In this document: positions 29,284 through 44,682 of the stretch, piece after piece
Layout: every line of letters starts with the position of its first letter
How positions within the stretch are numbered: the stretch's first letter is position 1
Program-made: the position numbers and the translations under genes
The notes under the pieces: generated by a model
Database searches by the model: none
Told to the model about the DNA's origin: nothing
What the model saw: only the letters and a program-made list of their open reading frames with translations
Source of the DNA: Polyangiaceae bacterium
GTDB taxonomy: Bacteria > Myxococcota_A > Polyangia > Polyangiales > Polyangiaceae
Reading direction: 5' to 3'
Assembly: GCA_020846005.1 (NCBI GenBank)
Contig: JADLEQ010000042.1
Coordinates: forward strand, 1-64,000
Length of the DNA: 64,000 nucleotides

Positions 29284-30429
29284 ATGGATCGCACCTTGTA
29301 CCGCGAGGAGCATGAGACCTACCGCCGGACGGTGCGCGCGTTCGTGGAGCGCGAGGTGGTGCCGCACCAGCGGCGCTGGGCGGAGGCCGGGGCCGTCGAC
29401 CGCGACGCGTGGCGAAAGGCGGGCGCGTCCGGGCTGCTCTGCCCCTGGCTCGAGGCCGAGCTCGGCGGGGGCGGCGGCGACTTCCTCTGTTCCGCGGTGG
29501 TGATCGAGGAGCTCGGCCGCGCCTACGAGTCGGGCTTCGCAATGTCGCTCCACTCGGACGTGGTGGTGCCGTACCTGCATGAGTTCGGTGACGCCGCCCA
29601 GCGCGCGCGCTGGCTCCCCGGCTGCGCGAGCGGCGATCTCGTGACCGCGATCGCGATGACGGAGCCCGGCACCGGCTCGGACCTCGCCGGGATCCGCACG
29701 ACGGCGCGCCGGGACGGGACCGACTACGTGCTGGACGGCAGCAAGACGTTCATCTCCAACGGCATCCTTTGTGATCTCTGCATCGTGGCGGCGAAGACGG
29801 ATCTCGACCCGGCGAACGCCCACTCCGCGGTGTCGCTGTTCGTCGTGGAGGCGGGCACGCCGGGCTTCGTGAAGGGGCGCAAGCTGGAGAAGATCGGCCT
29901 CTTCGCCCAGGACACCTCCGAGCTGCACTTCGAGGGCTGCCGGGTGCCGGAGGAGAACCGCCTGGGCGCCGAGGGCGCGGGCTTCTACATGCTGATGAAG
30001 AAGCTCGCGCAGGAGCGGCTCGTGGTCGCGCTCGGTGCGCAGGCGGCTGCCGAGCAGGTGTTGGCCGACACGATCGCCTACGTGAAGGAGCGCCAGGCCT
30101 TCGGCAAGCCGCTCGCCTCGTTCCAGAACACGAAGTTCGTCCTCGCCGAGTGCGCGACGAAGGTCGAGGTGGGCCGCGCCTTCCTCGACACGCTGACCCG
30201 CGCCCACGCGGGCGGCCAGAACCTGCCCAAGGAGTGCAGCATGGCGAAGCTCTGGCAGACGGACATGCTGGGCGAGGTGGTCGACGCCTGCCTCCAGCTC
30301 TTCGGCGGCTACGGCTACATGTTGGAGTACCCCATCTCCCGAGCGTACGTCGACGCGCGCGTCCAGCGCATCTTCGCTGGCACGAACGAGATCATGAAGG
30401 TGATCATCGCGAAGCAGCTCGGCCTCTGA
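29284..30429 (+). CDS. Acyl-CoA dehydrogenase, long-chain (LCAD/ACADL) type
   Basis: This 381-residue FAD enzyme catalyses alpha,beta-dehydrogenation of acyl-CoA in fatty-acid oxidation. It shows the N-terminal helical domain, the middle-domain signature IAMTEPGTGSDLAGIRT, and the C-terminal blocks ERQAFGKPLASFQNTKF and LFGGYGYMLEYPISRAYVDARVQ followed by FAGTNEIMK. In MCAD/SCAD the catalytic Glu directly precedes GTNE; here that position is Ala, as in LCAD and isovaleryl-CoA dehydrogenases, where the base sits on an earlier helix (near ECATKVEVGRAF). Chain length specificity is not certain. The Shine-Dalgarno GGAG lies 9 nt before the ATG. It appears monocistronic, followed by a hairpin. Confidence 0.93.
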   Translation: MDRTLYREEHETYRRTVRAFVEREVVPHQRRWAEAGAVDRDAWRKAGASGLLCPWLEAELGGGGGDFLCSAVVIEELGRAYESGFAMSLHSDVVVPYLHEFGDAAQRARWLPGCASGDLVTAIAMTEPGTGSDLAGIRTTARRDGTDYVLDGSKTFISNGILCDLCIVAAKTDLDPANAHSAVSLFVVEAGTPGFVKGRKLEKIGLFAQDTSELHFEGCRVPEENRLGAEGAGFYMLMKKLAQERLVVALGAQAAAEQVLADTIAYVKERQAFGKPLASFQNTKFVLAECATKVEVGRAFLDTLTRAHAGGQNLPKECSMAKLWQTDMLGEVVDACLQLFGGYGYMLEYPISRAYVDARVQRIFAGTNEIMKVIIAKQLGL

Positions 30430-32839: not shown

Positions 32840-33592
32840 ATGTCCGACCGGATGGATGGGTCTTCCGCGTTCTCGCTCCAGGGGCTGCTCCAGATCGAGG
32901 AGGAGCGCGTCGAGGAGGAGCGTCGCCGCGCGATCCAGCGCGAGACGGCGGCCGCCGCCGCGGGCGTCGAGCGCGAGCGGTTGCTGAAGGAGCGGTGGAC
33001 CGCGGAGCGCGCGGCGCGGGCGGAGCAGCACCGCCTCGAGGAGCTCCGGCTCCAAGAGGAGGCAGCGCGTCGCGAGGGCGTCCGGCAAGCGGAGGAGGAG
33101 GCGCGCCGCGTCGAGGCCGCGGTCGCCGCGCGTCTCGAGCTCGTCGCACAGCAGCAGCGCCACGCGACGGAGCTCGCGGCGGCCGCGCGGGGCGAGGACC
33201 GCCGGCAGGCGCGGCTCGTCAGCGTCGTGGCCGGCGGCTTGGCGATCGCTGCGGTGCTGGGCTCGATCCTCCACCACGGGCTCGTGGTCGCGCCGGATCG
33301 CGATCGGGAGCGCGCTGAGGCGCGCGCCACGCTCGGGAGTGCGACGGCGCGCGCCGACCGCGCCGAGGCCTCAGCGGCGCGCGAGGGCGCCGCCGCGCGC
33401 GCGCTCGCCGAGGATCTCTCTCGCGCGCGGCGAGAGCGCGACGAGGCGAGGCGCGAGCGGGACGCCGCGAAGCGCTCCGGTGCGCCCGCGGCGCGCGCGG
33501 CCGGGCCTGCGGGCGGCGGGGCGCGCGTGCCGCGGCCCGCGCCCTGCACACCGGGCGCGGAGAACGATCCGCTCGACCCCTGCCTCCGCTGA
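32840..33592 (+). CDS. Coiled-coil, single-pass membrane protein
   Basis: This 250-residue protein begins with MSDRMDGSSAFSLQGLLQIEEERVEEE, followed by a long highly charged coiled coil (Glu/Arg/Ala/Gln heptads, about residues 18-120). One transmembrane helix follows (LVSVVAGGLAIAAVLGSILHHGLVV, about 130-155), then a second charged coiled coil (to about 215) and a Pro/Gly-rich tail containing two Cys (PCTPGAENDPLDPC). The GAGGTG Shine-Dalgarno sits before the ATG. Family unknown to me; it could be a scaffold or a signalling adaptor. The stop lies 13 nt from the stop of the convergent kinase-like gene. Confidence 0.75.
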   Translation: MSDRMDGSSAFSLQGLLQIEEERVEEERRRAIQRETAAAAAGVERERLLKERWTAERAARAEQHRLEELRLQEEAARREGVRQAEEEARRVEAAVAARLELVAQQQRHATELAAAARGEDRRQARLVSVVAGGLAIAAVLGSILHHGLVVAPDRDRERAEARATLGSATARADRAEASAAREGAAARALAEDLSRARRERDEARRERDAAKRSGAPAARAAGPAGGGARVPRPAPCTPGAENDPLDPCLR

Positions 33593-33605: not shown

Positions 33606-34838
33606 TCAGTCGCCCGGAGGCCGGGCCGCCGAGGCGGGCGCGCCGTCCGCGGCGCTGCCCACCTCGAGCGCTGCAGCCGCGTCCGCCGCGCTCGACGCGG
33701 GGCGTGCCCCCGCCTCCAGCCGGCACGCCGTGAGGTGCTCGAGGACGAGCGCGACCCGGCGATCGAGCGCCTCGAGGTGCGCCGCATCGAGCACGGGCGC
33801 CAGCGGGTCGCGCGCGAGCGAACGTCCGAGGCGCGCGCCGAGGCGCGCGTTCTTCGGTGCGGACGGTCCGACGCGCTCCAGCGCGGCGAGCGTGGTCTCG
33901 CGGGCGAGGCAGCTCGCGCGCAGCCGTGAGAGCGCGGGGCGCGGCGCGACCTCGCGCGTCGTCATGAAGCCGGCCGCGTTGTCCAGGAAGACGAGCGGAC
34001 CGCCCTTCCCGAGCGACAGCACGTTCCCCCCCGACCACCGATCGCCGTTGTCGAGCAGCGCGTCGAACAGGAGCAGGTCGGCGAGTTCGAGCCGCCGCTC
34101 CGGGGCGAGCGTCGGGTCGTGGGCCCAGTCGCGTGGCGGCGCCGCGTCGGCCAGCGGCCGTGCGTGCCAGGCGATCATAGCCCCGGCCACCTCGCCGCTG
34201 GTGTCGCGCACCTCGGCGTCGAAGCGCGCGAGCTCTTCGGGCGAGGTGCCCGTGGCGACCAGATGCTCCCTTACCGCCGCGCGCGGGAGGCGCCTGCCGA
34301 CGACGACCGCGGTCCGACGCAGCCCGAGCAGGCGGTCGAGGTGGTAGGCGGCGATCTCGGCCCGGTGGTTCGACGCCCCGTGCGACTGCGCCGGCTTCCA
34401 CACCGCGCGCGCGCCGTCCTCGAAGCGGACGAGCAGCGTGATCGTGGCGCCGCCTCGGTTGCGGCGGAGCGAGGCGATCCGAGCGGCCGCCAGCCGCGTC
34501 GCCCACGCTCGATCGAGCGTCACGTCGACGGGGCCCGGCGGCTCGATCGGCGCGGCGCTCGGCAGCTTCGCGAGCAGCGCGCTGGGCACGGGCGCAGCCT
34601 CGAAGGCGGCCGGGGGCGCCCGGGGCGGCGGCGCGCTGCCGGCGGTCGCCACCGATGCGTCCGCACCGGGAGCGGCGGTCGTCGCGGCGCTCGTCGCGCC
34701 GAGCACGCTCGCCGGAGGCGGCGGCTCGGACCGGCCAGGAGCGTCGCCGGTGCGCGCCCGCTCGTCGACGCACGCCATCGCGACGCTGAGCCCGCAGAGC
34801 GTCGCGATGGCGAGGGCGAGCCGGTCGGGTCGGGCCAT
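33606..34838 (-). CDS. Secreted lipoprotein kinase candidate, FAM20/four-jointed/HipA-like fold
   Basis: This is a 410-residue protein with a signal peptide and possible lipobox (LSVAMAC), a Pro/Ala linker to about residue 95, then a kinase-like domain. Visible elements are a beta strand and Lys (RAVWKPAQ, Lys148), a helix with Glu (NHRAEIAAYHLDRLLGL), a catalytic-loop-like block FDALLDNGDRWSGGNVL (Asp266 in DR, Asn272) and a metal-binding-like FLDNAAGF (Asp286). This order and spacing are those of the FAM20/four-jointed and HipA protein-kinase branch. The export signal would place it outside the cytoplasm. Substrate and activity are unproven; the assignment rests on motif order. It is divergent from the deacetylase gene. 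Confidence 0.7.
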   Translation of the reverse strand: MARPDRLALAIATLCGLSVAMACVDERARTGDAPGRSEPPPPASVLGATSAATTAAPGADASVATAGSAPPPRAPPAAFEAAPVPSALLAKLPSAAPIEPPGPVDVTLDRAWATRLAAARIASLRRNRGGATITLLVRFEDGARAVWKPAQSHGASNHRAEIAAYHLDRLLGLRRTAVVVGRRLPRAAVREHLVATGTSPEELARFDAEVRDTSGEVAGAMIAWHARPLADAAPPRDWAHDPTLAPERRLELADLLLFDALLDNGDRWSGGNVLSLGKGGPLVFLDNAAGFMTTREVAPRPALSRLRASCLARETTLAALERVGPSAPKNARLGARLGRSLARDPLAPVLDAAHLEALDRRVALVLEHLTACRLEAGARPASSAADAAAALEVGSAADGAPASAARPPGD

Positions 34839-34899
34839 GGGACGCGGAGGATACCCGCGGCGCGCGGCGGGCCGTGCCTGGCGCTACCCTCGCGCTCGC

Positions 34900-36042
34900 T
34901 TGCTCGCGGCTCGCTCCCTCCGCCACGCCGCCCTCGCCGCCTGGGTGGCGGTGGGCGTCGCGTCGTGCGAGCGCGACCACCGCGCGAGTCGCGAGGTGAG
35001 CGGCTCGCCGGGGCCGGACGCCGCGCCGGAGCCGGTCGCCTCGGCGTCGGCGGTGCGCGCGCCGCTGAGTGTCGAGGAGACGGGGCCCTCGGGCACCCGC
35101 GTCCGGGTTCGCCGCCCGGTGACGGTGCGCTTCGATCGCGAGGTGTCGAGCGACGAGCGCGCCGCGGTCGCGCGCTCGGTCGCGGTGACACCCCCGGGGC
35201 GACTCGTCCCCGACTGGCCCGACGCGCGCACGCTCACGCTCGCACCCGCCGGCGGCTGGGCCCCGGGGCGGCTGCACCACGTCGAGATCGGCGGTGACGG
35301 GACGGGCGTCGCGCGCACCGCGTGGTCCTTCCGCGCTCGCGTCCCGCGCCCGCGCAGCGTCACGCCCGGCGGCGGAGCCCGCGCGATCCTCACCTTCGAC
35401 GACGCGCCGGCGCGCCATCACCAGGCGGACGAGCTCCTCGACGTGCTCCGGCGCCTGGAGGTCCGCGCGCTGTTCTTCCCGACGGGCGTCTGGGCTCGGT
35501 TGCGGCCGGCGTGGGTCGAGCGCGCCGTGCGCGAAGGCCACCGCGTGTGCAACCACACGCTGTCCCACGTGGACCTCACCTCGCGCCGCCTGACGGAGGA
35601 GGACGTCCGCCGAGAGATCGGCGAGGGCGCGACCGACGGCGAGTGCCGGCTGTTCCGCCCGCCGCTCATGGCGATCGACGAGCGCGCCGAGCGGGTGGCG
35701 GCGGACCTCGGGTGGGAGCTCTTCCTGTGGGACGTGGACCCGCGTGACTGGGACGGCCTCGAGGCGAGGGATCTCGTCCACGCGGTCCTCGGTCGGATCC
35801 GGCCGGATGCGGTCGTCCTCTTCCACGTGCACGCGCCGAACACCGTCGCCGCGCTGCCCGAGCTGGTCGCTCGCCTGCGCCGGGCGGGCTACGTACCGTC
35901 GTGGGATCCGGCCGACTCGCCCGGCGCCGTGGAGGCCGGCCAGCCCGGCCTCCGGGAAGCGCCCGCCCGCCGCTGGGCCGACGCGCTCCGGTCGCTCGAC
36001 GGCGGGACGCACGGGCCCGCCTCGCCGTCGTCACTCCCCTAA
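34900..36042 (+). CDS. Polysaccharide deacetylase lipoprotein with N-terminal Big_5-like domain
   Basis: This 380-residue protein has a signal and lipobox (AAWVAVGVASC), then a short beta-rich domain (VRVRRPVTVRFDREVSSDE through APGRLHHVEIGG) that resembles the bacterial Ig-like Big_5 repeat. A NodB-type carbohydrate esterase 4 domain follows with all five motifs: TFDDAP, HTLSH, RPPLMAID, DVDPRDW and VVLFHVHA. The metal triad (Asp plus two His) is intact, so N-deacetylation of an envelope or matrix polysaccharide is likely. The start is inferred: TTG at 34900 gives a normal lipoprotein signal, while an ATG at 34837 would add 21 polar residues and overlap the divergent gene's start. Confidence 0.85.
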   Translation: MLAARSLRHAALAAWVAVGVASCERDHRASREVSGSPGPDAAPEPVASASAVRAPLSVEETGPSGTRVRVRRPVTVRFDREVSSDERAAVARSVAVTPPGRLVPDWPDARTLTLAPAGGWAPGRLHHVEIGGDGTGVARTAWSFRARVPRPRSVTPGGGARAILTFDDAPARHHQADELLDVLRRLEVRALFFPTGVWARLRPAWVERAVREGHRVCNHTLSHVDLTSRRLTEEDVRREIGEGATDGECRLFRPPLMAIDERAERVAADLGWELFLWDVDPRDWDGLEARDLVHAVLGRIRPDAVVLFHVHAPNTVAALPELVARLRRAGYVPSWDPADSPGAVEAGQPGLREAPARRWADALRSLDGGTHGPASPSSLP

Positions 36043-36162: not shown

Positions 36163-39100
36163 ATGCGTTTGTTCACGCTCACCCGCCTGAGCCTCGTGTC
36201 GCTCGGCCTGATCGCTGCCTTCGGCTGTGCCGAAGAGCGCGAGCCCATCAGCCGCGTCCAGCCGAACGCGCTCGACAAGACGTTCTTCGTCGGGAACCTC
36301 GCCGACGCGACCGACGATCCCGCCTTCTACTCGCGGGCGTTCGTCATCGACCAGACGGCGAACCAGACGGAGCTGAGCGTCGGGCTCTACTCCGGCACGG
36401 ACAAGATCCGCTGGGAGATCGGCGAGGACTACCTCGTCGCTCACAAGGCGTACCAGATCGTGCGCGGACAGGACGACAAGGGTCTGGCGGGCCAGCCCGC
36501 CGACGGCACGATCGTCGCGCGCTACCGCATCCTCGGGCACTTCGACATCAAGCGCGCCTACAACCCGACGACCGGCGAGGAGCTGAACGTCATCGAGGAG
36601 AACGGCAGCGACCGCCCCTGGTACCAGCGCCAGTACATGCGCGTCGACTGGTCGACGAACGACATCGCGGATCCGATGTGGTTCGAGATGACGTTCGGCA
36701 AGCTGTTCGGCGACACCACCGTCCTGCCGAGGACGTACGCCGTCACCGACCCGACGCACGAGCACGCCCCGTACTTCGACACAGCGGACGGCTACTTCGA
36801 CGTCACGAACAAGTACTACACGGCGCCGTCGAACACGTACTTCGAGCCGTGGGGCATCTCGCTCCCCACGTGCGCGCTCGTCGGCCTCTTCACCGGAACG
36901 GTCTCGAACGACTGCAATGAGCAGGAGTCGACCGTCCGCCACTCGTTCTGGAAGCTCAAGCCCGACCACAGCTTCGAGCCGACGGAGAACACGCTCCGCC
37001 CGCTGGACGTGATCGCGAACTTCGGCGGCGCCGGGGACAGCTTCCAGCCCGGGTTCGCGGGCGGCACCACCCAGTGCTGGGACCCGCAGTACGCCTTCAC
37101 CGAGGAGTGCTTCCACAAGTACCTGACGAAGGTGAACGTGTGGGCGAACAGCCACACGCAGCAGCTCTGCAACAGCGACTTCGACGGCAACCAGGACGGC
37201 ACGGCCGACCAGTGCGAGAACGCGTCGGTGAGCAAGGGCTCGCGCTGCGACCTCTATCACGGCAAGTGCACGCTCGCCCTCCGTGATCGCTCGGTGAAGA
37301 CGGTCGGCTTCTGGATGAACAAGGAGACGCCCGCCTCGCTGCTCGACGAGCTCGACGCAAACGGGAACCCGGCCGGCGCCCTCGACGCGCGCGGCCGGCC
37401 GCAGCTCCGCGGCGCCATGGAGGACGTGATCGAGAGCTGGGATCAGGTCATGGCGGTGGCGCTCGCCTACGGGCGTGAGGCCGAGTGCCGGCGCACCGGC
37501 GACGGTAGCCGCGACCAGTGCCACCAGGCGTACTTCGAGGTGGACGGCGGCGGTCAGGACGTGACGCAGATGATCTCGTTCGGCGGCTGGGGCATCCCCA
37601 CGCCGAAGGCGCTGGCCCAGGACGCGGCCGAGGTGTTCACCTCGTGCCACGCGCCCGTCCGCGCCTACGACGACCACGAGACCTGCGGCCCGACGGGAGA
37701 AATCGCACGTAACGGCGACCAACGGAAGAACTTCATCTTCTACTGGCCCTGGGACGCCGATGCTCCCTACGGCGGCGTCGCCGGGCTGGGCCAGGATCCG
37801 GAGACGGGCGAGAGCCACGGCGTGACGGCCACCGTGATGGGCCGCTCGGCCACCCGAGCTGCGGCCCAATACCGCGACTACATCCAGATCGCGATGGGCG
37901 ACATCTCGTTCGACGAGTACGCCGCCGGTCTCCCCACGGAGCTCTTCCACAAGCTCCTCGAGAACGGCTTCTCGCCCAACAGCGACAGCGCGCGGCGCGC
38001 CCGCGGCGAGACGATCGAGTACCCCGCCGACCCGACGGCCGCGCCGGCCGCCGACGGCCACGCGACGCACGGCCGCACGGACACCGCGATGGTGGACCCG
38101 AAGGTGGCGTACGCTCAGCTCCGCGAGCTCCTCGCTGCCCAGATCGAGACGACGGCCGACCCCGCCGTGTCGATCGCGGCCCAGGGCCAGTTCGATGCCC
38201 TCGCCTCGCGCCTGCGTGGGACCGTCTATGAGGCCGAACTCGTCGACCCGAAGTGGGCGAAGGCGATGCTGGGCACCGATCCGCGGGTGCCCGTGAGCGA
38301 GGCGGCCCTCGAGGCCTCCAGCCCGCTCCGGAACATGGACCCCGGACGGCTCCAGCAGTGGCGGGCCACCATGGCCGGCAAGCTCGCCGAGCGCGGCGTG
38401 TGTCACCTGGAGGACGGCCCCCGCGTCGGGAGCATCAACTTCCAGGGCATCATGCGCTGGTACCTCGACAAGTTCGAGGAGCTCGGCCTGGACACCGACC
38501 TCAAGGCAGGCACGCGCGATCTCGCCCTGGTGAAGAAGCGCGGCGAGTACATCTACGCCGATCTCTACAAGCAGATGGCCAAGGGCATCGCGATCCACGA
38601 GGTGGGCCACTGCATTGGCATGCGCCACAACTTCTCGTCGAGCTGGGACGCGCCGAACTACATGCCCCAGTACTGGCAGCTCCGAACCAACGAGGGCCAG
38701 TCGGCCGAGCTGTGCACCGGCGCTCGCGAGGCCGGCACGCCGGACTCCTGCCTCGGGCCGCGCTACCTCGACCCCGAGACGGAGGACGAGCAGGGGCTCG
38801 CGCCGCGTGACGGGACCACGGGCCTCTCCAACGGGCGCCCCGGGGTCACGTACTTCGGGAACACCAGCGTGATGGAGTACGAGACGGACTACCTGTCTCC
38901 CGGCATGGGCACCTACGATCTCGCGTACGTGAAGGCCGTCTACGGCGGCGTCATCGAGACGTACGACATCGACCACGCCGACCGCGGCGGTGTCGAAGAG
39001 GCGGAGCAGGAGCGCTTCGTCGCCAACATCGGCCTCGAGCTCTCTGAGCTCACCATGCTGGATGACCAAGCGGCCCACTACACGCAGCTCGCGCAGGCGC

Positions 39101-40641
39101 TCAAGGTCTACGACCCGTCGTACTGCCGCGCGGCGACCCAGGAGGAGCTCGCGCGAGGCGAGTGGCGCGTGGTGAAGGGTAAGATCTGCACGCAGAGCCC
39201 GCGTGACCACTACTTCTGGCGTGATTTCGCCAGCGACGACGAGGCGGGCGCACCGCCCTCCCTCTACGCGGACATCCTGAACTTCTCGTTCTGGCGGACG
39301 AAGACCGAGGTCGACGGTGGCCGCCTGCACCAACGCTGGAACTACCGGTACGGCGAGACGTACGGCACCGGCTACATGCACACGAACCCGAGCGACTCCG
39401 GCGGCGACGTGTTCGAGGTCGTGACGAACACCTCCAAGATGTTCGACTACACGTACCCCGTCTCGTACCTCCGCCGGAAGAACAAGGAGTACGCGCCGAT
39501 TACGCTGAGCGCCCAGGTCGCGGATCGCTACTTCGAGCGCATGCGCGCCTACCATTGGGTGCTGGAGGGCAACGACTCCTACCTCGCGCAGTTCCCGATT
39601 GTGTACCAGGGCTACCAGCAGGCGAAGGAGGAGGTCCTCTACACCCTGATGCGCGGCGCCATGGCCCCCCAGCCGGGCAACTACGTCACGCGCTTCGACG
39701 ACGCGGGCAAGGTCGTCTACGACGCCAGCGACAGCGGCGGAGGCGGGTTGTCCTTCGCCCCCGACTTCCAGGTCGGCCTGATCGACGGTCGCTTCGTCGA
39801 GGACGACTACTCGAACGAGCTCGGCGGCGAGTGGGACTACGGCACCTGGCTGGAGCACGAGGGCTACGACGTGGAGCGCGGCCTCGCCATCCGCGCCCTG
39901 GTCGACGGCCGGCCGACGCTCTCGACCATCAGCCGCGAGACCTACCTCGACGGCCGCAACAACCTGAAGAACTTCCGGAGCGACTTCAAGATCGCGGTCG
40001 ACCGGTTCCTCGGAGGCCTGCTCGCGGAGGACTGGGAGACCACGGCTCCGTGGGTCGTCGCTCCGGGCCCGACGGCGGAGGGCGGGCTCGCCTTCGCGTC
40101 GCCGCAGCTCCTCCCGCTCGCGGCGTCGAGCCCGACCCGTCCGGTAGGCTCCGTCCCGGTGTTCCCGAACATCGGGTACAAGAGCCAGCTGGCGACGGTC
40201 GTCTTCGCCCACCTGTTCGCGCGGCTGAACACCGACATGGAGCTCGTGAACAAGCTCCGCGTCTACATCGACGGGCTCGATCACCTTGGCGCGGTGCCGG
40301 ACGCCGACCAGGTCCGCTTCACGGATCCGGGGAGCGGCTTCACCTATGTCGCGATCCGCGGCGAGGCCGACACGGTGGCGGGCAAGGCGATCGACCGCGG
40401 TGTCGGCTCGCGCATGCTCGCCCACGCGAACGCCCTCCTCGCCAAGGCGTACACCGTCCAGCGTGACGGCAGCAACCAGCCGATCCTCGACCAGTACGGG
40501 AGGCCGACGCTCCTCTCGTCGGGGCCGGTCGACGGCGTCGCGTGGGAGGGCCTGCGTCGCTACGTCGGCCTGGTCGACGCGACGCGCCAGGTGGGTCGCC
40601 ACCTCGACGGGCCCCTCGACGCGATCGCGGCGCCGAACTGA
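36163..40641 (+). CDS. Large zincin metalloprotease lipoprotein
   Basis: This encodes a 1,492-residue lipoprotein with a signal ending in the lipobox LIAAFGC. It then has an N-terminal segment (SRVQPNALDKTFFVG) typical of a myxobacterial family of very large, paralogous secreted proteins. The zinc site is HEVGHCIGMRH (about residues 812-822), an extended HExxHxxGxxH motif of the metzincin/gluzincin type, followed by NTSVMEYETDY and a Met-turn-like region. The remainder is Trp/Tyr/Asp-rich with many Cys. It is probably an outer-membrane or secreted protease used in predation or matrix turnover. The Shine-Dalgarno GAGGAG lies 6 nt before the ATG. A sigma-54-like element precedes it. Confidence 0.9.
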   Translation: MRLFTLTRLSLVSLGLIAAFGCAEEREPISRVQPNALDKTFFVGNLADATDDPAFYSRAFVIDQTANQTELSVGLYSGTDKIRWEIGEDYLVAHKAYQIVRGQDDKGLAGQPADGTIVARYRILGHFDIKRAYNPTTGEELNVIEENGSDRPWYQRQYMRVDWSTNDIADPMWFEMTFGKLFGDTTVLPRTYAVTDPTHEHAPYFDTADGYFDVTNKYYTAPSNTYFEPWGISLPTCALVGLFTGTVSNDCNEQESTVRHSFWKLKPDHSFEPTENTLRPLDVIANFGGAGDSFQPGFAGGTTQCWDPQYAFTEECFHKYLTKVNVWANSHTQQLCNSDFDGNQDGTADQCENASVSKGSRCDLYHGKCTLALRDRSVKTVGFWMNKETPASLLDELDANGNPAGALDARGRPQLRGAMEDVIESWDQVMAVALAYGREAECRRTGDGSRDQCHQAYFEVDGGGQDVTQMISFGGWGIPTPKALAQDAAEVFTSCHAPVRAYDDHETCGPTGEIARNGDQRKNFIFYWPWDADAPYGGVAGLGQDPETGESHGVTATVMGRSATRAAAQYRDYIQIAMGDISFDEYAAGLPTELFHKLLENGFSPNSDSARRARGETIEYPADPTAAPAADGHATHGRTDTAMVDPKVAYAQLRELLAAQIETTADPAVSIAAQGQFDALASRLRGTVYEAELVDPKWAKAMLGTDPRVPVSEAALEASSPLRNMDPGRLQQWRATMAGKLAERGVCHLEDGPRVGSINFQGIMRWYLDKFEELGLDTDLKAGTRDLALVKKRGEYIYADLYKQMAKGIAIHEVGHCIGMRHNFSSSWDAPNYMPQYWQLRTNEGQSAELCTGAREAGTPDSCLGPRYLDPETEDEQGLAPRDGTTGLSNGRPGVTYFGNTSVMEYETDYLSPGMGTYDLAYVKAVYGGVIETYDIDHADRGGVEEAEQERFVANIGLELSELTMLDDQAAHYTQLAQALKVYDPSYCRAATQEELARGEWRVVKGKICTQSPRDHYFWRDFASDDEAGAPPSLYADILNFSFWRTKTEVDGGRLHQRWNYRYGETYGTGYMHTNPSDSGGDVFEVVTNTSKMFDYTYPVSYLRRKNKEYAPITLSAQVADRYFERMRAYHWVLEGNDSYLAQFPIVYQGYQQAKEEVLYTLMRGAMAPQPGNYVTRFDDAGKVVYDASDSGGGGLSFAPDFQVGLIDGRFVEDDYSNELGGEWDYGTWLEHEGYDVERGLAIRALVDGRPTLSTISRETYLDGRNNLKNFRSDFKIAVDRFLGGLLAEDWETTAPWVVAPGPTAEGGLAFASPQLLPLAASSPTRPVGSVPVFPNIGYKSQLATVVFAHLFARLNTDMELVNKLRVYIDGLDHLGAVPDADQVRFTDPGSGFTYVAIRGEADTVAGKAIDRGVGSRMLAHANALLAKAYTVQRDGSNQPILDQYGRPTLLSSGPVDGVAWEGLRRYVGLVDATRQVGRHLDGPLDAIAAPN

Positions 40642-40732: not shown

Positions 40733-41821
40733 CTAGGGCAGCGCCGAGGACAGCGGCAGCCACCCCCAGCGAGCCCGGTAGGCGGAGGGGGGCGCCGAGG
40801 GAGCCCGGTGGAAGCTGCCCACGCCGTGGGACACCCCGATCGAGTCCTCCGTCGCCAGCGCGGGATGGAGCACTACGTGGGTGCAGAACGACTCCTCGTC
40901 GACGGACGGGAGCGCGCAGCGCGCCGCGAGGTACGGCCGCGACCAGGGGCCGTACGGACCGAGACCCGTCCGCACGGTGATTTCGGCGCCCAGTGGGGTC
41001 GAGTACGCGAGCAGCCACCGCTCGAGCGCCACGTGGTACCCCACGGTCGGCTCCGTACCGCCCTCCACCATCGGCCACGCTGCGTCCGCCGTTGGCGCCC
41101 AGGCGCCGCCGCCGCTCCAGTACTCCCAGGCGCCGGGCTCGGCCGCGCGCGCCGTCGCGACGCGCGCGAGGTACACGTCGGCCGAGAGGAAGCGCGCGGC
41201 CAGCCCGCCATAGGCGTAGAGGTAGTCGCCGCTCGCGGCCGCGCCGGCCCCGTAGCTCGGACGATCTGCCGTCCAGAGCAGCACCGGGTCCACGAACGCG
41301 CCGGCCGCCGCGTCCCAGCGCGCGAGCCCGCGCCCGACGGCCGCGACCCCGAACGCGGCGCTGGAGTCGGGGCGCTCGGCGGCGAAGAAGACGAACGCCG
41401 TCGCTCCGGCGGCGACCAGCGAGGTCGGCCGCGCGACCACGCGCGGGCCGAGGGGCGAGGCGTCGAGGATCGGCGTCGCCGGCAGCGCGACCTCGCCGGC
41501 ATCACAAGGGCTGTCGCGGACCGCGAACCCGCGAGGCCCGCCCCGCGCGGCGTCGGCGACGACGAGCGAGCCCTCGACGCCCAGCGGCGGGCCCGGGAGC
41601 GACGCGAGGCGCGCCTCGAGGCCGTCGCCCTCGCTGGGGAGCGGCGCGCACGCCTCGAGCGCGGGCGGGGAGGGGGCCGGGCGCTCCTGCTCGATCGCGT
41701 CGTCGAGCGTGACCCGGCACCCGACCAACGCCGTCGCGGCGACGGCGAGCGTCGGCGCAACCCTCGCGCGGCGCGCCGCCGGGCGCGCCCGTCCCGCGGG
41801 GCGCGCGAGCTCAGCGCGCAT
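40733..41821 (-). CDS. DUF4185-like propeller lipoprotein
   Basis: This 362-residue protein has an unusually Arg-rich N-region before its hydrophobic signal, a candidate lipobox (VAATALVGC) and a body of repeated beta strands (GDYLYAYGG, VYLARV, MVEGGTEPTVGYHVALERWLLAYS, ARCALPSVDEESFCTHVVLHPAL). The pattern resembles DUF4185/GH43-like five-bladed propellers, which bind or cleave glycans; catalytic acids are not assignable by eye. It is the third gene of a minus-strand operon and overlaps the gene before it by 11 nt (41811-41821). It is distantly similar to the first gene of the operon, so the two are likely paralogues. Confidence 0.75.
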   Translation of the reverse strand: MRAELARPAGRARPAARRARVAPTLAVAATALVGCRVTLDDAIEQERPAPSPPALEACAPLPSEGDGLEARLASLPGPPLGVEGSLVVADAARGGPRGFAVRDSPCDAGEVALPATPILDASPLGPRVVARPTSLVAAGATAFVFFAAERPDSSAAFGVAAVGRGLARWDAAAGAFVDPVLLWTADRPSYGAGAAASGDYLYAYGGLAARFLSADVYLARVATARAAEPGAWEYWSGGGAWAPTADAAWPMVEGGTEPTVGYHVALERWLLAYSTPLGAEITVRTGLGPYGPWSRPYLAARCALPSVDEESFCTHVVLHPALATEDSIGVSHGVGSFHRAPSAPPSAYRARWGWLPLSSALP

Positions 41822-42707
41822 GCAGCCGCACTCCCGCGCCTGCGCGAAGCTCTGTCCGGTTGACGAGGAGCCCCTGCCCGTGCCCTGCTTCCGCCTCGAG
41901 GAAGGGCATCGCCGCGGCGGAGGTGCCCACCGCCTCCACGCCGGCGAGCGCGCCGGCCAACCACCGCGCGCTCGCGCTGTCGTCGTGTGGCAGGAGCGCG
42001 TCGAAGTGGAGCCCCGCGCGCGGACGCCACCGCGCGCTCGCGCGCGACGTGGCGCTCACCTCGCCGAGCACCGTCGCGAGCGCGCCCTGCCCGAGCGCGG
42101 ACGCGAGGTAGGCGGACTCGGCGTGCGCGCCGGCCGCCTCCGGGAAGATCGTAGCGTACGCGCGGGCGGTGAGCCGCGTCTCGAGCTCCCAGCTGCCCGC
42201 GAACCGGCGGCGGAGCGCCGCGTCCCCCCCCAGGTACCAGCCCCCTCCCCCGAAGGGGACGTCGTCCGGGCGGCGGGGACCCGGCGGTTCGAAGGCGTCC
42301 AGCGCGAAGGCCGAGCGGCGCCCGAGCCCGACGCCCAGCTCGAACAGCGGGCCGCGCGCCGGTGGCGCCGGCGGCCACGACCACGCGGCTCCGACCTCGA
42401 AGCCCCCGCGGCCCACGTCACCCGGCGGCGCCGGGCGCGCGCCGAGGCTCTCCAGGGCGAGGAAGCCCTCGAGCCCAAGGCGGAACCCGCGCTCGGACCG
42501 GAACACGGCCGTGTCCGCCCCGAGGCGGAGCCGCGGTCGCGGCGCCATCGCCAGCTCGAACGCCGGCGCGTCGTGCGCGAGCGCGCGCCCCCGCGCGATC
42601 GCGCGGCTCCGCCCGGCGAGCCAGTCCGCCCGCGCCGCCGCTCCCCAGGAGACGGCGGCCGCGACCGCCGTGGCCGCCACCGCCGAGCGGAGCCCGAGGC
42701 CGCTCAT
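41811..42707 (-). CDS. Exported envelope protein of unknown family (possible beta-barrel)
   Basis: This 298-residue protein has a Sec signal peptide (AVAATAVAAAVSWGAAARAD). Alternating Gly-rich and aromatic/Arg-rich strands follow (RLRLGADTAVFRS, FRLGLEGFLALES, WELETRLTARAYA, RPRAGLHFDALLP, and a final RAGAGVRLHAR), compatible with an outer-membrane beta-barrel, but the fold is inferred. It is translationally coupled to the DUF4185-like gene before it (ATGA overlap at 42704-42707) and overlaps the next gene by 11 nt. Its position between two surface propeller lipoproteins suggests one membrane-linked assembly. Confidence 0.7.
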   Translation of the reverse strand: MSGLGLRSAVAATAVAAAVSWGAAARADWLAGRSRAIARGRALAHDAPAFELAMAPRPRLRLGADTAVFRSERGFRLGLEGFLALESLGARPAPPGDVGRGGFEVGAAWSWPPAPPARGPLFELGVGLGRRSAFALDAFEPPGPRRPDDVPFGGGGWYLGGDAALRRRFAGSWELETRLTARAYATIFPEAAGAHAESAYLASALGQGALATVLGEVSATSRASARWRPRAGLHFDALLPHDDSASARWLAGALAGVEAVGTSAAAMPFLEAEAGHGQGLLVNRTELRAGAGVRLHAR

Positions 42708-43759
42708 CGGTAGCCGACCCGGACGAAGTGCGGGTAGTAGAGCGTCGTGTCGTAACGCGCCGGGAGCGCCGCGAAGCTGGAGGGAACATACGTCGCGACC
42801 AGCTCGGCACCGGTGAGCTCCGGGTGCGCCTTCGCCGCGTAGACGAACGCGTCCGGCCAGAAAGACTCCGGCGGGCGCAACAGATCTCGCGGCTCCGTCC
42901 ATGGCCCCTCGGGCCGCGGCGCCGTCCGCAGCGCGATCGTGGTGGAGCCGAAGCCAGCGCCCGCGACGTACACGTAGCGGCCGAGCGCCTCGGCCCAGTG
43001 GACGCTGAACTCCGGCGCGCCGGCGTGGAAGAGCGGCGCGCGGTGCGCCTCGGCGCCGAACCCGACGCCCGTCCACCACTCGGGCCCGCGCAGGTCTCCG
43101 CGCAGCGCGCGCTCGGCGTCGAACCGGGCGAGGTACGGCGAGTGCCGCTCACCGCCGGGCCCGTAGACGTACAGCCACGGCTCGATCAGCAGCACCGCTC
43201 CTCCGAGCTGCACGTGGGTCCGCTCGCCGTCGGACGCCGCCCGCGTGATGCGCCAGTCGGTCGGCTCGTCGTCGGGGTTGTCGACCAGCCACGCGCGCCA
43301 CTCGCCGGCGGCGAAGCCCCAGTCGCCGGGGCTGTCCTGGTACACCTGCCCCGCGAACCAGAGGAGCCGGTCGCCGCGGCGGATCCCGCCGCCCGGCCAG
43401 TGCCAGGTCGGCGGCTCGTCAGGCAGGAAGCTCGTCGCAGCTCCGTCCTTGACCCGCCAGTAGAACTGGAGGAACGCGCTGGACGGATCGTAGCCCGTCT
43501 GGATCGCGACGCTGTTGCGGATCAGCCGCGCGCCCTCGCGGAGGCCCGGCTCACGCTCGGCGATGAAGCTGTCGCCGAAGCTCCAGAGCACCCGCCCGCC
43601 GCCGAGGTCGACCGAGTACGCGCCGTCGCCGCCGACCCAGCGCGGGTCGCCGTGGAACAGCGAGTCGGCCTCCGTCCACACCTCGGCGTGGAGCGGCGGC
43701 GGCCCGGGGTCACACGCGGCCGCGAGGGCGAGCGCGAGCGCGAGCGAAGCGCGAGCCAC
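42704..43759 (-). CDS. DUF4185/DUF5005-like propeller lipoprotein
   Basis: This 351-residue lipoprotein has a short signal and lipobox (LALALAAAC). The propeller domain starts with DGAYSVDLGGGRVLWSFGDSFI, a hallmark of DUF4185-type proteins, and continues with repeated blades (GIRRGDRLLWFAGQVYQ, AVLLIEPWLYVYGPG, GRYVYVAGAGFG, LVATYVPSSF). These are five-bladed glycosidase-like folds. The start GTG at 43759 has a GGAG Shine-Dalgarno. It is the first gene of a three-gene overlapping operon and is divergent from the SUMF1-fold gene. Confidence 0.82.
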   Translation of the reverse strand: MARASLALALALAAACDPGPPPLHAEVWTEADSLFHGDPRWVGGDGAYSVDLGGGRVLWSFGDSFIAEREPGLREGARLIRNSVAIQTGYDPSSAFLQFYWRVKDGAATSFLPDEPPTWHWPGGGIRRGDRLLWFAGQVYQDSPGDWGFAAGEWRAWLVDNPDDEPTDWRITRAASDGERTHVQLGGAVLLIEPWLYVYGPGGERHSPYLARFDAERALRGDLRGPEWWTGVGFGAEAHRAPLFHAGAPEFSVHWAEALGRYVYVAGAGFGSTTIALRTAPRPEGPWTEPRDLLRPPESFWPDAFVYAAKAHPELTGAELVATYVPSSFAALPARYDTTLYYPHFVRVGYR

Positions 43760-43815
43760 GGACTCCAGCGTAGCAGCCGTGGCCGCGCCGGCTCGGCGTG
43801 TGGTATCCGGCGGCG

Positions 43816-44682
43816 ATGGTTTGGCGACCCGACGGCCCCCGCCTTCGCGCGCGGCGGGCCCGCGGCCCCGGATGGCGCGCTGGCGCGTGGCTGGGCGCGG
43901 CGGCCGGGTGGCTCGCCGCCTGCACCCCGCGAGCTGCGCCGCACGCGCCTCAGGGCGCGGTCGAGGTGGCGGTCCCCCCGCCCGCGGCGGCAGATCCCGC
44001 CCGTTCGGCGGGCGCGTCGGTCCGCTCCGAGCGCGGCTCGCGGATGGCGAAGCTCCACGGCGGCGAGTTCGTGATAGGACGCGACGACGGAGACGCGGCC
44101 GTCGGCCCCGCGCACGTCGTCACGCTCGCGCCGTTCGAGCTCGACGTGACCGAGGCCACCGTGGCGGACTACGCGGCGTGCGTCGCCGCGGGGGCGTGCT
44201 CGGAGCCGGGGGCGGGGGACTCGTGTACCTGGGCGCGACGCGACGCGGAGCGGCTGCCGGTCAACTGCGTCGACTGGCATCAGGCCACGCGCTTCTGCTC
44301 CTGGGCGGGCAAGCGGCTACCCACCGAGGCCGAGTGGGAGCGGGCGGCGCGCGCCGGGACCGGGCGCCGGTACCCGTGGGACGGCGATTCGCCGCCGGCC
44401 GATCTCTGCTGGTCGCGCGACGCCGCGCTGGGGCCGTGCCCCGTCGACGCCGGTGGTGGCGTGCACTCGCCCTACGGGGTGGCCGACCTCGAGGACAACC
44501 TGGCCGAGTGGACGAGCAGCCCGTTCTGTCGCTACCTGGAGGAGGAGTGCCTGGAGACGGGCCCGGTGATCCGGGGCGGGGACTGGACCTCGAGCGATCT
44601 CCAGGTCTTCGGCGCGAGCGATCGCGCCTGGGACAAGTCGTCCGGCCGGCTCCCCACCGTCGGCTTCCGCTGCGCGCGGTGA
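43816..44682 (+). CDS. SUMF1/FGE-fold lipoprotein (probably non-catalytic)
   Basis: This 288-residue protein has an Arg-rich N-region, a hydrophobic segment and a lipobox (AAGWLAAC), then a complete SUMF1/formylglycine-generating-enzyme-like fold (KLHGGEFVIGRDD, PVNCVDWHQATRFCSWAGKRLPTEAEWERAARAG, YPWDG, GVADLEDNLAEWT, VIRGGDWTSSD, VGFRCAR). In true FGEs an active-site Cys pair lies just after RGGS; here that segment (WTSSDLQVFGASDR) has none, so formylglycine formation is unlikely. Such proteins act as lectin-like or kinase-associated domains. The ATG at 43816 is preferred to a GTG at 43798. Confidence 0.85.
   Translation: MVWRPDGPRLRARRARGPGWRAGAWLGAAAGWLAACTPRAAPHAPQGAVEVAVPPPAAADPARSAGASVRSERGSRMAKLHGGEFVIGRDDGDAAVGPAHVVTLAPFELDVTEATVADYAACVAAGACSEPGAGDSCTWARRDAERLPVNCVDWHQATRFCSWAGKRLPTEAEWERAARAGTGRRYPWDGDSPPADLCWSRDAALGPCPVDAGGGVHSPYGVADLEDNLAEWTSSPFCRYLEEECLETGPVIRGGDWTSSDLQVFGASDRAWDKSSGRLPTVGFRCAR

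Follow-up and report, generated by a model that had tools for sequence, protein, structure and literature searches.

A Fam20-family kinase domain in a predicted lipoprotein of a myxobacterium

The window (the whole stretch of DNA analysed, 64,000 nucleotides from contig JADLEQ010000042.1 of a Polyangiaceae bacterium) carries on its reverse strand an ATG-initiated open reading frame for a protein of 410 residues, present as a single copy in the 5.7-Mb genome of 119 contigs. Contamination by animal DNA was considered and rejected, given the 113-kb contig and the conserved bacterial neighbours in several genera. The gene, its features and the adjoining genes are as follows.

33606–34838, reverse strand: gene for a Fam20-type kinase of 410 amino acids, predicted lipoprotein (open reading frame, Pfam, profile and fold)
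34773–34838, reverse strand: predicted signal peptide, residues 1–22 (rule-based lipoprotein pattern)
34770–34772, reverse strand: lipobox Cys23, predicted lipidation site (sequence and pattern)
34539–34769, reverse strand: Ala/Pro-rich linker, residues 24–100, not conserved (sequence; pLDDT low at the start of the model)
33699–34526, reverse strand: kinase domain, residues about 105–380 (Pfam, profile, AlphaFold2 and fold comparison)
34449–34454, reverse strand: Gly129-Gly130 of the glycine-rich loop (Gly129 invariant in 53/53)
34395–34397, reverse strand: Lys148, equivalent of FAM20C K285 (alignment)
34371–34373, reverse strand: Ser156, aligned with the essential E306 of FAM20C and with Q258 of FAM20A (alignment; role of E306 from PMC4421793)
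34356–34358, reverse strand: Glu161, equivalent of FAM20C E311, ion pair (alignment)
34023–34049, reverse strand: catalytic loop N264-G-D266-R-W-S-G-G-N272 (N264, D266, R267 and N272 invariant in 53/53)
33978–33983, reverse strand: Asp286-Asn287, putative DFG-like metal site (Asp286 equivalent to D478 of FAM20C and invariant in 53/53)
33909–33911, reverse strand: Cys310, aligned with hydra Fam20 Cys341 (alignment; disulfide from PMC5865150)
33723–33725, reverse strand: Cys372, aligned with hydra Fam20 Cys400 (alignment; 13/13 in the window's clade, 0/40 elsewhere)
34900–36042, forward strand: divergent polysaccharide deacetylase, putative lipoprotein (PF01522, E = 1.3e-19; TTG start assumed)
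32840–33592, forward strand: convergent gene for a 250-residue protein with no Pfam match (another unnamed family takes its place in relatives)
29284–30429, forward strand: acyl-CoA dehydrogenase-like gene in the conserved neighbourhood (synteny; annotation of plasmid relatives)

By both sequence and fold, the protein belongs to the FAM20 kinase family, whose animal members act on secreted proteins and on sugars. It matched the Pfam family Fam20C (PF06702) with 63.6 bits (E = 2.8e-17; curated cut-off, 26.8), a family also matched by all 30 aligned domains of its relatives, and it matched structures of FAM20A, FAM20C and FAM20B at E values of about 1e-16 (phmmer); its match to FAM198 lay below the curated Pfam cut-off, and NCBIfam and PHROGs gave no match. 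When searched with a family profile built from 30 myxobacterial sequences, human FAM20C was recovered across the whole domain (E = 7.6e-40), followed by type II PI 4-kinases at E = 0.12. An AlphaFold2 model (pLDDT 89.3, pTM 0.87) gave Fam20 structures as all of the top 28 Foldseek chains, and VIA-align Z scores were 25.8–27.4 for Fam20, 15.8–17 for PI4KII, about 15 for CtkA and 10–11 for HipT and HipA. Identity to animal Fam20 over the domain is 27–31%. The original prediction, which had placed the protein in a FAM20/HipA kinase branch and named structure prediction and profile searches as checks, is thus borne out for FAM20 by sequence, by fold (Fam20 folds nearest, no unrelated family on top) and by a Lys-Glu-Asp-Asn-Asp set that is invariant among relatives. 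The HipA half fared differently: the fold is shared, but HipA is a distant cousin, and the window protein has no HipA family match in Pfam.

We compared the active site across a set of 53 myxobacterial sequences. Twelve positions are invariant in all of them, including Gly129, Lys148, Glu161, Asp259, Asn264, Asp266, Arg267, Asn272 and Asp286, and Asn287 is found in 48 sequences, that of the window included. The residues that had been proposed as a kinase signature (K148, a Glu helix containing E161, D266-R267...N272 and D286) were all found at the positions given, well outside what chance would yield, and the Lys-Asp-Asn-Asp set, whose absence from close homologues had been named as grounds for rejection, is identical in 53/53. 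Lys148, Glu161, Asp266 and Asp286 align with K285, E311, D458 and D478 of human FAM20C, the roles of which have been described (PMC4421793). The earlier reading was silent on two further features, namely Ser156 at the essential Fam20 acidic position and the Fam20 cysteine pair C310/C372.

In animals, a Fam20-specific loop contributes E306, a Mn ligand on which activity depends; FAM20A, a pseudokinase, has Gln at this position, and the substitution E306Q strongly lowers the activity of FAM20C (PMC4421793). An acidic residue at this place, which is Asp in Fam20B, marks the active animal enzymes. This loop is missing from all 53 bacterial sequences, in which the gap between Lys and Glu is 13 residues (52 sequences) or 15 (one sequence), as against 26 in FAM20A and FAM20C. 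The E306 position is occupied by Ser156 in the window protein and is acidic in only 2/53 sequences, both from a distant subfamily (f1b, below). All 53 carry Asn272 in the catalytic loop, where FAM20A and FAM20C have Thr or Met; Asp and Asn are spaced by 6 residues in 34 sequences and by 8 in the other 19. Given the loss of the loop and of E306, and the presence of an invariant Asn of the kind that classical kinases employ for metal (as in the PKA set D166/N171/D184 given in PMC12189002), the metal site is probably built otherwise, and the bacterial proteins may use Asn272 and Asp286 for metal. With the loop absent and the acidic residue replaced, the window protein is, on sequence comparison, a true relative of animal Fam20, probably with an unlike metal site, and no orthologue of FAM20A, FAM20B or FAM20C.

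A single lineage shares a further feature with the animal enzymes. Of the four disulfides in hydra Fam20, one links Cys341 with Cys400 (PMC5865150). The equivalent pair, C310/C372, is present by alignment throughout the window's clade (13/13) and in none of the 40 other bacterial sequences; it is the only one of the four animal disulfides for which the window protein has the cysteines, its remaining ones being C15 and C23. A maximum-likelihood tree computed without these two Cys columns joined the four animal sequences to the window's clade (support 94/77). Because the animal sequences sit on a long branch (1.91) and deviate in composition, we regard this placement as suggestive only; among the bacterial branches found here, the window's clade would be the closest to the animal enzymes, which the data suggest without being decisive.

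Comparison with characterized enzymes places these likenesses in context. With Fam20C, the Golgi casein kinase (human, zebrafish and C. elegans), the window protein shares homology over the whole domain, the fold (Z 26–27), the four catalytic equivalents, one of four disulfides and, if its predicted export holds, a place among secreted enzymes; it differs in having only about 27% identity, Asn272 in place of the Fam20-specific loop and E306, three disulfides fewer, other substrate-site residues and the character of a bacterial predicted lipoprotein. Fam20B and the hydra Fam20 xylose kinase are similarly close (Z 27, 31% identity over 217 aligned columns, Trp224 and the Cys341–Cys400 pair), whereas His301 and Lys321 of the xylose pocket are replaced by Trp268 and Ala289 and the Tyr148–Tyr151 loop is absent. 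The pseudokinase Fam20A is homologous and likewise has a non-acidic residue in place of E306 (Gln in Fam20A, Ser here); in contrast to it, the bacterial catalytic loop has an invariant canonical-type Asn, and the window protein is without the disulfides of the glycine-loop insertion. Because of this Asn, loss of the acidic residue need not mean inactivity. Four-jointed/Fjx1 (PMC3416761 for Four-jointed) and FAM198 (GASK1) belong, as distant members, to the same secretory kinase group, and FAM198 was matched weakly by 25/30 relatives. HipA, HipT, CtkA and type II PI 4-kinases have the core of the fold in common (Z 10–17) at much lower similarity; to our knowledge, none of them is an exported lipoprotein. 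In the open-access literature, we found one bacterial kinase reported to resemble Fam20C, the spore-coat kinase CotH of Bacillus, in which a DFG-type metal motif is absent and adenine is sandwiched by aromatic residues (PMC12189002). The window protein differs from it in having the DFG-like Asp286-Asn287, and the CotH Pfam family gave no match to it at E values up to 10, in a search whose filter drops weak matches.

Export was scored with a home-made rule. The predicted signal peptide and lipobox, MARPDRLALAIATLCGLSVAMA-C23 (lipobox-like VAMA-C23), agree with the original prediction in fitting a PROSITE-like lipoprotein rule, although position −3 is Ala instead of Leu, and the window protein is probably an exported lipoprotein. 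The same rule assigned a lipoprotein signal to 22/53 relatives and another signal or anchor to 16 more (38/53), compared with 31 and 61, respectively, of 295 neighbouring genes (92/295); several relatives that the rule left unscored show a lipobox by eye. The type of export varies between subfamilies (lipoprotein, anchor or plain signal peptide), and this speaks for selection of a location outside the cytoplasm. The cysteine pair found in 13/13 members of the window's clade is also in line with export.

As had been proposed, the gene divergent from that of the kinase encodes a polysaccharide deacetylase, and the two genes are divergent in 9/9 syntenic genomes from four genera. The syntenic block also retains the acyl-CoA dehydrogenase and unnamed genes; as these are unrelated, its conservation is partly plain synteny, and the pairing with the deacetylase may be mere vertical inheritance. 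A deacetylase gene is absent from the vicinity of the kinase gene in four of the clade's 13 members. The kinase ATG (reverse strand) and an upstream in-frame deacetylase ATG at 34837 (forward strand) overlap head to head in a CATG at 34836–34839; with a start at the TTG at 34900, the lipoprotein signal peptide of the deacetylase would be shorter and there would be space for a shared promoter. Adjoining the deacetylase is a gene for a predicted lipoprotein of 1,491 residues (36166–40641) with an HEVGHCIGMRHN metzincin motif (PF16313, DUF4953), and the run of surface-type genes continues with two predicted DUF4185 lipoproteins and a sulfatase-modifying-factor-like lipoprotein (40733–41821, 42704–43759 and 43798–44682). 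Other lineages have other neighbours. In one (L047–L049), a gene of the NAGPA phosphodiester glycosidase family is divergent from the Fam20-like kinase gene (Pfam match for the L047 copy); in another (L041, 7192–10626), ~10 bases separate the kinase gene from the agmatine deiminase-type gene behind it, and nitrilase-type and thiamine phosphate synthase-type genes come next. In subfamily f1b (L095–L102), the kinase gene is often the last one behind genes for an alpha/beta hydrolase and a small ribbon-helix-helix-like protein (weak match), often overlapping, and an S41/PDZ protease gene is divergent from this unit. No universal partner gene was present in the neighbourhoods compared across lineages.

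We infer, with about an even chance of being right, that this protein of FAM20 family and fold is an exported, membrane-anchored and active kinase whose acceptor is most likely a glycan. The signal peptide and Cys23 lipobox would make it a lipoprotein outside the cytoplasmic membrane, held on a flexible Ala/Pro-rich tether. Its kinase domain would bind ATP through the Gly loop and the Lys148–Glu161 pair, and metal ions would be held by Asp286 and Asn272, replacing the Fam20-loop Glu of animals; Asp266, from its invariance and homology, would be the catalytic base, and Cys310–Cys372 would correspond to the C-lobe disulfide of Fam20. The acceptor would most likely be an envelope or extracellular glycan, and less so a protein. 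We weakly prefer a glycan on the basis of the divergent deacetylase in all syntenic genomes, the divergent phosphodiester glycosidase in another lineage, and Trp224, which is invariant in the bacterial set and common to hydra Fam20 (Phe in FAM20A/C); the single Fam20 proteins of sponge and of hydra are glycan kinases (PMC5865150). Counting against a glycan kinase are the loss of the FAM20B sugar-pocket residues that hold Gal-Xyl (His301 to Trp268, Lys321 to Ala289, no Tyr148–Tyr151 loop) and the variation of neighbours among lineages, and counting against an active exported kinase are Ser156, at the acidic position whose loss makes FAM20A a pseudokinase, and the supply of ATP, for which these bacteria have no known source outside the cytoplasm.

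Two other readings keep the protein outside the cytoplasm. A FAM20C-like Ser/Thr protein kinase, acting on envelope or secreted proteins of the myxobacterium, is an appreciable but lesser possibility: FAM20C of human and of zebrafish ranks with the top matches both in sequence and in fold, and Fam20C targets secreted proteins (PMC7948968), but the features that shape the substrate site of FAM20C itself and select its SxE targets, including its loop residues and a substrate-site Arg (Ala289 here), are absent from the window protein, and no candidate substrate accompanies the gene in all lineages. The absence of the Fam20 loop throughout the set and Ser156 at the essential position would also fit a pseudokinase or other chemistry on a kinase fold, such as a nucleotide-binding envelope protein like FAM20A, and ATP is scarce outside the cytoplasm. 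Against such a protein, which we consider unlikely, the remaining catalytic residues, including the canonical-type Asn that FAM20A/C lack, are invariant in 53/53, and invariance across very diverged subfamilies is not expected of a pseudoenzyme. Least probable by far is a cytoplasmic HipA-type kinase of a toxin–antitoxin pair, a reading that is largely refuted: HipA/HipT and CtkA share the fold (Z 10–15), 5/30 relatives match HipA_2 weakly and the distant subfamily f1b has the small ribbon-helix-helix-like gene (weak match) in front, but Fam20 matches are far stronger, the window's clade has no HipB-like neighbour, and conservation extends to the signal peptides and the cysteine pairs.

A kinome survey called some kinase clusters, FAM20 included, eukaryotic- or Metazoa-specific (PMC9758233), and a review follows the Fam20 family from sponges to humans (PMC7948968). 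In the open-access literature, we found no description of bacterial Fam20 proteins. The expectation that bacterial examples are few was not upheld, as the family is common in Myxococcota: PF06702 was present in 29/377 genomes of this phylum and 0/14 control genomes, and a more sensitive family profile found relatives in 49/108 genomes of the window's own family. Among the subfamilies, the window's clade (f1a) comprises 13 sequences and f1b, of the same family, 17 (its single member tested against PF06702 gave no match), with others in further families and orders.

Extracytoplasmic phosphorylation by Fam20 kinases is regarded as peculiar to animals. Were a branch with another metal site common in bacteria, ideas on the origin of these kinases could be tested directly. 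One speculative scenario, which we consider less likely than not, is that animal Fam20 kinases stem from an exported kinase of the window's myxobacterial clade, the gene having been transferred at about the time when animals arose; the bacteria would have kept an older metal site (Asn and Asp), swapped in animals for the Fam20 loop and Glu, and would possess a widespread, undescribed system of extracytoplasmic phosphorylation. An exported bacterial kinase raises the questions of how ATP is supplied outside the cytoplasm and which targets are phosphorylated there.

Two queries gave no match among plasmid records. Four weak relatives on viral contigs were rejected as members of the Fam20 family and are phage kinase-like domains with an N-x-DR motif (L054, 679–3774; L055, 2314–3585; L056, 2503–3405; L057, 2245–3729). 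In L054, a phage portal/head-morphogenesis protein (PHROGs 2662 and 2468) precedes the domain in a fusion, and all four have PHROG 3162 (function unknown) in common.
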